Positions 12,402 through 14,342 of a stretch of DNA of 57,427 nt are shown here, piece by piece. The first letter of the stretch is position 1; each line of letters opens with the position of its first letter. The stretch lies in contig QCMN01000006.1 of assembly GCA_003213715.1 (NCBI GenBank), positions 1 to 57,427 of the forward strand. The letters are read 5' to 3'. This stretch comes from Pelagibacteraceae bacterium AG-422-B15. Its GTDB lineage: Bacteria > Pseudomonadota > Alphaproteobacteria > Pelagibacterales > AG-422-B15. The translations under genes and the position numbers were made by a program. The notes under the pieces were generated by a model. The model searched no databases. It was not told where the DNA came from and saw nothing but the letters and a program-made list of their open reading frames with translations.

Positions 12402-13145
12402 ATGGCAGGCCACTCTAAATTTAAAAACATTATGTACCGCAAAGGTGCACAAGATAAAAAGAGAGCTAGTTTATTTTCTAAACTTTCAAAGGAAATTACA
12501 GTAGCAGCTAAGTTGGGCGCACCTGATCCTGATCAAAATGCGAGATTAAGATCAGCTATACAATTAGCGAAAGCCTCAAGTTTCCCAAAGGAAAATATCG
12601 ATAGAGCGATAAAAAAGTCTTTGGATAAAGATACTGTTAACTATGATCAAATGAGGTACGAAGGATTTGGCCCAAACGGAACGTCGATAATTGTTGAGGC
12701 ACTTACGGATAATCGAAATAGAACAGCTTCAAATGTAAGATCTACATTTCAAAAATTTGGAGGTTCAATGGGTGAAACAGGTTCTGTCTCCCATGCATTT
12801 AATCATTATGGTTTTGTACGTTATAACAAAGATGTGACAAGCGAAGAAGATTTTTTCAACTTTTCGATCGAGGGTGGTGCTGAAGATTGTTTTATCGAAG
12901 AAGATTCTTATGAAGCAGTATCTAAGCCAGAAACTCTATCAAATTTATATAATTATTTAGATAAAAAATTTGGTGAGCCTGTATCATCAGGTTTCCAATG
13001 GAAACCTGTTACGTATGTAGCTATTGAGGGCGATAAACTTAAATCCCTTATTAACTTGCTCAATGAACTTGATAATGATGAGGATGTTCAACAAGTCTTT
13101 TCAAATTTTGAGGCATCAGACGAAGAATTAGCAAAGTTTGCTTAA
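12402..13145 (+). CDS. yebC: YebC/PmpR-family protein (TACO1 homologue)
   Basis: 247 residues. MAGHSKFKNIMYRKGAQDKK at the N-terminus, followed by an LFSKLSKEITVAAK block, is the canonical YebC signature. The family acts as a DNA-binding regulator in some bacteria, and recent work ties YebC proteins to translation of polyproline stretches, which would complement the efp gene here. In most alphaproteobacteria yebC is followed by ruvC-ruvA-ruvB; in this window those three genes are absent and a nuclease gene follows instead. Confidence 0.95.
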   Translation: MAGHSKFKNIMYRKGAQDKKRASLFSKLSKEITVAAKLGAPDPDQNARLRSAIQLAKASSFPKENIDRAIKKSLDKDTVNYDQMRYEGFGPNGTSIIVEALTDNRNRTASNVRSTFQKFGGSMGETGSVSHAFNHYGFVRYNKDVTSEEDFFNFSIEGGAEDCFIEEDSYEAVSKPETLSNLYNYLDKKFGEPVSSGFQWKPVTYVAIEGDKLKSLINLLNELDNDEDVQQVFSNFEASDEELAKFA

Positions 13146-13212
13146 TTTATTCACTTTCAAAAAAAATTTATATGAATTAATCTTAAACTATTAAGTAATT
13201 CTGATTCGCTTT

Positions 13213-13593
13213 ATGCCAGGTAGTTCTCCAAAAAGAAAAGGTGATGGGTACGAGAGAGAGCTTGCGAAGTACCTTAATGAAAAAATTTTTAATGGAGAAG
13301 ATAAAGTTCAACGTATGCCTTTGTCAGGTGGTGGCGCTATCAAATCTTCTGGAGGTAGTGATTTAAAAAATACTCCTCATATCTACGTCGAAGCTAAAAG
13401 AACTGAAAAGTTCAAAATTCATGAGTCAATGAGACAAGTTTGTGAAAATATTGAAACATCTAAATCAGACTCAATTCCTGTTGTTATAACGAGAAGAAAT
13501 CGAGAGGCAACAGGGGACTCGCTTTGTGTTTTGAAACTTGACGACTTTATAGAACTTTATCGAATATTAATTAATAGTAAAAAAGGACTTTAG
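13213..13593 (+). CDS. PD-(D/E)XK nuclease, archaeal Hjc-like putative Holliday-junction resolvase
   Basis: 126 residues. A KGDGYERELAKYLNE helix carries Glu14; QRMPLSGGGAIKSSGGSD carries Asp50; and IYVEAKRTEKF carries Glu60 and Lys62. This E...D...ExK spacing and the RxPxSGGG segment are those of archaeal Hjc resolvases and of the related PDDEXK endonucleases of marine phages. The C-terminal half (PVVITRRNRE, then LKLDDFIELYR) matches the phage-type branch. It stands exactly where ruvC-ruvA-ruvB normally lie, between yebC and tolQ. By position and fold it may resolve recombination junctions; this has not been shown, and a phage origin is plausible. Base composition does not differ from its neighbours. 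Confidence 0.75.
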   Translation: MPGSSPKRKGDGYERELAKYLNEKIFNGEDKVQRMPLSGGGAIKSSGGSDLKNTPHIYVEAKRTEKFKIHESMRQVCENIETSKSDSIPVVITRRNREATGDSLCVLKLDDFIELYRILINSKKGL

Positions 13594-13637
13594 GATTTGC
13601 CCTAATTAAGACAATATTTAATAATAATTGAAAAATT

Positions 13638-14342
13638 ATGGAAAACGAAGATTTAGTAAGTGTTAGCCAAGTAAACGATGAGTTCACATTAATTTCACTT
13701 TTTTTCAGAGCGGATATTGTCGTAAAGTTGGTGATTCTAATTCTATTTGCTTCTTCTATTTTCTCATGGACTATAATAATTCATAAAATTCGTTTATTTC
13801 GCTCTTTAAAAGAAATCAGTAAGCAGTTCGAGGAAGAATTTTGGTCGGGAAGATCAATAAAAGAAATCACTAGTAGCACGAGAGAGTTACCAGAAAGTCC
13901 AATTAAGTATGTTTTCAATGAAGCTGTTGATGAGATTGAAAAGTCTAATCAGGAAACTACAAAAAAAATAGATAGTTTAGTTGATAGATTAAATCGTGTT
14001 ATGGAGGCAGCAATAGATTTTCAAAATGAGAAGCTATCTGAATACTTTAGTTATTTGGCAACGATAGGTGCTACAACTCCATTTATTGGATTATTTGGAA
14101 CGGTATGGGGAATAATGAATTCTTTTCAATCTATTGCCATTTCAAGAAATACCTCCCTTGCAGTAGTTGCTCCTGGAATAGCTGAAGCATTATTTGCAAC
14201 TGCTCTTGGTTTATTAGCAGCAATACCTGCTGTTATTGCTTACAATATATTTACTAGTCAGGTGAATGATGAAAATGCACGAATGTATCGATTTAAAGAA
14301 CATTTTAATGTCATTTTCTCAAGAGGCTTGAGTACGAAATAG
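13638..14342 (+). CDS. tolQ: TolQ, Tol-Pal proton channel subunit
   Basis: 234 residues of the MotA/TolQ/ExbB family. One transmembrane helix lies near residues 30-50 (VKLVILILFASSIFSWTI), then a cytoplasmic loop, then two helices: YLATIGATTPFIGLFGTVWG near residue 140 and FATALGLLAAIPAVIAYNIF near residue 180. TolQ with TolR uses the proton gradient to energise TolA for outer-membrane constriction. It heads tolQ-tolR-tolA-tolB-pal-cpoB. The ybgC thioesterase gene that often precedes tolQ is absent. Confidence 0.95.
   Translation: MENEDLVSVSQVNDEFTLISLFFRADIVVKLVILILFASSIFSWTIIIHKIRLFRSLKEISKQFEEEFWSGRSIKEITSSTRELPESPIKYVFNEAVDEIEKSNQETTKKIDSLVDRLNRVMEAAIDFQNEKLSEYFSYLATIGATTPFIGLFGTVWGIMNSFQSIAISRNTSLAVVAPGIAEALFATALGLLAAIPAVIAYNIFTSQVNDENARMYRFKEHFNVIFSRGLSTK

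Follow-up and report, generated by a model that had tools for sequence, protein, structure and literature searches.

The yebC-tolQ slot and its single gene

The window, the whole stretch of 57,427 nucleotides analysed here, is a contig of the genome of Pelagibacteraceae bacterium AG-422-B15 (G000; 1.09 Mb, 85.5% complete). Its family, the AG-422-B15 family (f1), belongs to the SAR11 order, and the larger sister family of the same order (f2) is taken to be Pelagibacteraceae proper. Between yebC and tolQ the window contains one open reading frame, which encodes a PD-(D/E)XK nuclease and begins at a Met with which its relatives also begin; the interval listed in Table 1 is the entire gap, and a reading of this DNA made earlier from its letters (hereafter the sequence-only reading) was correct in counting only one gene there. 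Scans of the nuclease locus for promoters, terminators and Rfam families returned nothing above chance.

What does the slot hold in other alphaproteobacteria? Of 20 ruvB regions from other alphaproteobacteria, 11 show the order yebC-ruvC-ruvA-ruvB-tolQ (with ybgC in ten), and others show parts of it. This is the class order that the sequence-only reading had given as yebC-ruvC-ruvA-ruvB-(ybgC)-tolQ, and given this order the nuclease gene stands in the exact place of ruvCAB.

Table 1. Features of the yebC-tolQ slot in the window, and PHROG 2002 genes in the same slot of other families (positions preceded by an L number refer to that locus)
Feature	Position	Strand	Remark
yebC, left flank of ruvCAB slot	12402..13145	+	NCBIfam NF001030, 2e-90
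yebC-tolQ slot	13146..13637	no strand	place of ruvC-ruvA-ruvB(-ybgC) in other alphaproteobacteria
PD-(D/E)XK nuclease gene	13213..13593	+	126 aa, ATG start; predicted stand-alone Holliday junction resolvase
Glu14 codon	13252..13254	+	motif I, first helix; invariant in 55-row alignment
Asp50 codon	13360..13362	+	motif II, metal ligand by analogy; invariant in 55-row alignment
Glu60-Ala61-Lys62 codons	13390..13398	+	motif III, EAK; invariant in 55-row alignment
tolQ, right flank of slot	13638..14342	+	NCBIfam TIGR02796, 3.2e-75
PHROG 2002 slot nucleases	L277:2265-2558(+), L278:2263-2571(+), L282:1134-1472(-), L289, L290, L291		f142, f25, f32

Family, predicted fold and phage kinship of the nuclease

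To which family does the nuclease belong? It matches PF24608 (PDDEXK_15) at 35.5 bits against a cut-off of 27 (1.2e-8), and it matches PHROG 244 (phrog_244), labelled Holliday junction resolvase, at 4e-21, PHROG function labels being computed. The Hjc Pfam model PF01870 scores 14.9 bits (E 0.026), under its cut-off of 21.1 bits, and the RuvC model PF02075 gives no match to the window nuclease. By sequence comparison the nuclease is a PDDEXK_15/PHROG 244 protein, outside Pfam Hjc. Glu14, Asp50, Glu60 and Lys62, the four residues that the sequence-only reading had singled out, are all correctly placed and do not vary across the 55 bacterial and viral rows of an alignment; the same holds for Lys9, Gly10, Arg34, an LSGGG stretch and Arg63.

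The order of these motifs, E...(S/P)D...ExK, is also that of archaeal Hjc and Hje; the Asp-Glu spacing of archaeal Hjc is 13. Hjc motif III follows the pattern hhh(E/D/Q)hK and motif II the pattern hDhhXp (PMC8805305). Motif III of the nuclease, IYVEAK, fits the Hjc pattern, and its motif II is SDLKNT, with Lys at a hydrophobic position, where the phages have ADLLGT. Hjc_15-6 of Thermus phage Tth15-6, an archaeal-like resolvase for which junction cleavage has been proved, has the signature E-SD-EVK (PMC8805305), which resembles E14-S49 D50-E60 A61 K62 of the window nuclease. In a profile search the Hjc_15-6 structure (PDB 7bgs; 7bgs/7bnx chain, named Holliday junction resolvase) was matched weakly (E 0.38) and in the N-terminal part only, KGxxYExEL...RxPLSG. 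The kinship is remote. The Asp-Glu spacing is 10 in the window nuclease and 13 in Hjc_15-6, and Hjc_15-6 is a phage protein, whereas the window nuclease would be a cellular replacement.

The predicted fold points the same way as the motif order. An AF2 model computed from the 55-row alignment reaches a pLDDT of 86.7, and an earlier AlphaFold model from 18 sequences (pLDDT 56.6) was set aside in its favor. The predicted fold is nearest to those of A. fulgidus Hjc and S. solfataricus Hje: archaeal Hjc and Hje proteins fill the first 12 places among the Foldseek matches in the PDB, and the top one (2wcw) has a probability of 1.00 but a weak E-value of 6.7e-3 and a TM score of 0.48. Among viral predicted structures in BFVD a phage protein scores best (4e-11), followed closely by phage 'Holliday junction resolvases', and a sequence search of the PDB with the single nuclease protein gave spurious matches only, mostly helical designs. 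The PD-(D/E)XK motifs and the predicted Hjc-like fold set the nuclease apart from the RuvC family, which has an RNase-H type fold. The earlier description of the protein as an Hjc-like nuclease is therefore upheld by motif order and predicted fold but not by PF01870, whose cut-off it does not reach; the nuclease probably works like Hjc.

The nearest relatives of the nuclease are proteins of marine tailed phages. Phage proteins 45-57% identical to it are frequent in contigs of marine viruses and share with it the motifs and size class of the PF24608/PHROG 244 families, and no archaeal sequence is found among its close relatives, which distinguishes it from archaeal Hjc. The homologue in Roseobacter phage CRP-810 is annotated as a Holliday junction resolvase and adjoins primase/polymerase; alongside that in viral contig L092 are primase/polymerase, a Cas4-type exonuclease, a Sak4-like annealing protein and an integrase. 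A maximum-likelihood tree places the f1 proteins in a single clade (99/92) within viral diversity. When 84,980 species of bacteria and archaea were scanned, a search limited by its exact-peptide seeding, the only carriers besides f1 were four marine MAG contigs, possibly phage. The simplest reading is that the gene moved from phage to host. Of the "archaeal/phage-type" resolvase proposed at first the phage part stands; the protein is only archaeal-like, its source resembling phage and not archaea.

Unlike the phage members of PF24608 and PHROG 244, the window gene is chromosomal, is fixed in a bacterial family and occupies the ruvCAB slot, and its neighborhood lacks phage genes. The 147 genomes sampled from the order include 53 of f1, of which 43 have the gene; it is present in all 12 f1 genomes that are at least 90% complete, the f1 genomes lacking it being 53-79% complete, and the f1-type nuclease is found in none of the f2 genomes. 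It is fixed and syntenic across four genera, with yebC, nuclease and tolQ on one strand in 42/42 f1 loci checked. Identity rises to 98% in close relatives, dN/dS against other species is mostly 0.02-0.08, and the nuclease is under strong purifying selection.

RuvABC in the order and other phage-type nucleases in the slot

Is RuvABC encoded elsewhere? Across the same 147 genomes (f1 and f2 together, the majority assembled from single cells or metagenomes and 106 of them at least 90% complete), the models for RuvB (TIGR00635), RuvA (TIGR00084) and RuvC (PF02075) return nothing over cut-off; the same RuvB model is positive in 217 of 234 near-complete alphaproteobacteria. The PF02075 genome search gives a false negative for f2, where it mostly misses a RuvC-like gene in the slot, and divergent proteins can escape such searches. 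For this reason the negatives were backed by reading whole the 100%-complete genome of a relative, G002, in which nothing convincing was found for RuvA, RuvB or RuvC. G002 has a protein 70% identical to E. coli RecA, as well as YqgF, and RecG is full length in f1. The loss of the standard RuvABC system suspected from the window is therefore seen both in the sampled genomes and in the complete relative, with RecG retained. A tblastn search of G002 with E. coli RadA matched best only in the Lon-like C-terminal stretch, and a second branch-migration factor, RadA/Sms, may be missing from G002 too.

The sister family fills the slot differently. In 15 of 15 f2 genomes inspected (L057-L071; for example L063:906-1397(+)), a gene for a RuvC-type protein of 162-165 aa, matching PHROG 1770 at 5e-36 to 9e-38, is the lone occupant of the yebC-tolQ interval, with neither RuvA nor RuvB, and its nearest phage relatives include epsilon15-type phages. 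The f2 protein has the slot, the absence of RuvA and RuvB, and phage kinship in common with the f1 nuclease; it is a member of the RuvC (RNase-H type) family and unrelated to the f1 enzyme. Absence of RuvC from the whole order was considered and rejected, the f2 slot gene being a phage-type RuvC. Nor do loss and gain coincide, as had been envisaged: RuvAB is missing order-wide, including in f2, which lacks the f1 nuclease.

Outside the order, a survey of the class yielded 30 genomes without a RuvB match at 1e-40, and several RuvB-less families among them have a phage-type nuclease gene directly behind yebC. In f51 (G195, G319) it encodes a 168-aa PDDEXK_15 protein (2e-21; L272:960-1466(-), L287:1745-2251(+)), nearest to proteins of jumbo Pseudomonas phages and distant from the f1 nuclease in the tree; in these two loci tilS directly follows the nuclease gene, the tol-pal genes that intervene in the window being missing there. 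Likewise, f142, f25 and f32 have nucleases of about 100 aa in the slot that match PHROG 2002 (2e-6 to 3e-10) and no Pfam family over cut-off, that of f142 being nearest to Bacteroides phage BS162P1. In f119 (G263) a divergent PHROG 1770 RuvC-like gene lies between yebC and ybgC-tolQ (L281:987-1487(-)). PF24608 is over cut-off in only 3 of 289 class genomes, and all three lack RuvB and have the match in the yebC slot.

There are exceptions. Four genomes scored as RuvB-less (G253, G264, G190 and G230; L275, L280, L279 and L283) keep a canonical ruvC behind yebC, the explanation being either assembly gaps or true loss of RuvB alone, and some other RuvB-less genomes of the class have neither canonical ruvC nor a phage-type nuclease beside yebC. 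The pattern thus holds as a tendency of streamlined lineages and falls short of a law. A tree of YebC and YmdB groups all replacement lineages with modest support, but composition bias is likely, so this tree cannot separate one loss of RuvAB from several.

RuvC seems to have repeatedly given way in this slot to phage resolvases that stand alone, RuvAB being absent. Takeover of junction processing by a resolvase after RuvABC loss, as the sequence-only reading had it, is largely supported; the case is not isolated, since other RuvB-less families hold other phage-type nucleases in the slot. More broadly, and with somewhat better than even confidence, we propose a resolvase exchange site: streamlined alphaproteobacteria, including SAR11, would process Holliday junctions without RuvAB by means of stand-alone phage-derived resolvases, at least four unrelated or remotely related enzymes (a RuvC-like protein, two PDDEXK_15 types and the PHROG 2002 nuclease) having been exchanged at this site, either for each other or for RuvC.

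Proposed Holliday junction resolution without RuvABC

What does the nuclease do? We consider it likely that, in an organism lacking RuvAB, it has taken over from RuvC as a stand-alone Holliday junction resolvase derived from phage. This proposal is supported by the PDDEXK_15 and phrog_244 matches, the invariant catalytic set, the Hjc/Hje fold matches, the slot, fixation and low dN/dS, together with the absence of RuvABC, the presence of RecA and RecG, the different resolvases in the slot of other RuvB-less lineages, and the neighbors of the viral homologues. We propose that RecA would make four-way junctions, whose branch point would most likely be moved by RecG in place of RuvAB. By analogy to Hjc and to the Hjc of phage Tth15-6, a homodimer of the nuclease would then bind the junction and nick two opposed strands, one per subunit, by Mg2+-dependent catalysis at an active site composed of Asp50, Glu60 and Lys62 with Glu14, and the nicked duplexes would be ligated. 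In the AG-422-B15 family the nuclease very probably cuts junctions.

Enzymes resembling T7 endonuclease I cleave many kinds of branched DNA, PD-(D/E)XK folds have many functions, and the junction specificity of the window nuclease is anchored only by archaeal and phage Hjc-like proteins of low similarity. A domesticated phage nuclease for branched DNA, flaps or forks, serving repair or fork rescue and not dedicated to junctions, would fit these facts. However, its best structural neighbors are all dedicated junction resolvases, the gene lies exactly at the place of ruvC, and the alternatives found in the slot are all of resolvase families; we judge such a general role unlikely. A little less probable still is that junctions are resolved by YqgF or an unrecognized protein and that the window nuclease has another role. 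YqgF is present in G002 and has been proposed as a backup resolvase, but in most genomes it is found together with RuvC or RecU, which argues against simple substitution (PMC1193525), and the presence of phage resolvases in the ruvC slot of RuvB-less lineages would be left unexplained.

A restriction enzyme, defence nuclease or prophage remnant located here by chance would account for the viral kinship, but we find this very improbable: no phage genes or methyltransferase adjoin the gene, it is fixed and syntenic over four genera with dN/dS mostly under 0.1, and the other PF24608 cases over cut-off are confined to the slot of RuvB-less alphaproteobacteria. As a candidate defence system the nuclease was rejected, PADLOC giving a weak REase_II match only (0.022). 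Least credible of all is that RuvABC exists but was left unassembled or has diverged too far, nothing having been replaced: G000 is 85.5% complete and PF02075 missed the RuvC-like protein of f2, but none is found in the 106 genomes at least 90% complete or in G002 read whole, and for RuvB the idea is already refuted, the same model succeeding in 217 of 234 near-complete alphaproteobacteria.

The proposed replacement of RuvC by a phage-type resolvase has a precedent in RecU, whose fold is of the PD-(D/E)XK type. RecU replaces RuvC in Firmicutes, where RuvAB is kept and recU is rarely near ruvAB (PMC1193525); in the AG-422-B15 family, in contrast, RuvAB is gone and the nuclease gene lies in the ruvCAB place. 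RuvAB is close to universal in RecA-positive bacteria, only two RecA-positive genomes without it appearing in a survey of 117 species (PMC1193525). Titles and abstracts of the literature on SAR11 or Pelagibacter and ruvABC or Holliday junctions contain no report of the case, most subscription journals being outside that scope. Beside the known RecU precedent, the present case would be one in which single phage-type resolvases have taken the place of the entire RuvABC resolvasome in situ, and it may be new.

RuvAB is absent from a whole order of very abundant ocean bacteria, and phage-type resolvases lie in the vacated slot. A core recombination step in this order would thus have passed to borrowed viral parts, probably together with RecG. 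Whether RuvC can be replaced without RuvAB becomes an ordinary complementation question. Finally, a single slot taken repeatedly by unrelated resolvases would constitute a natural experiment in non-orthologous gene displacement.
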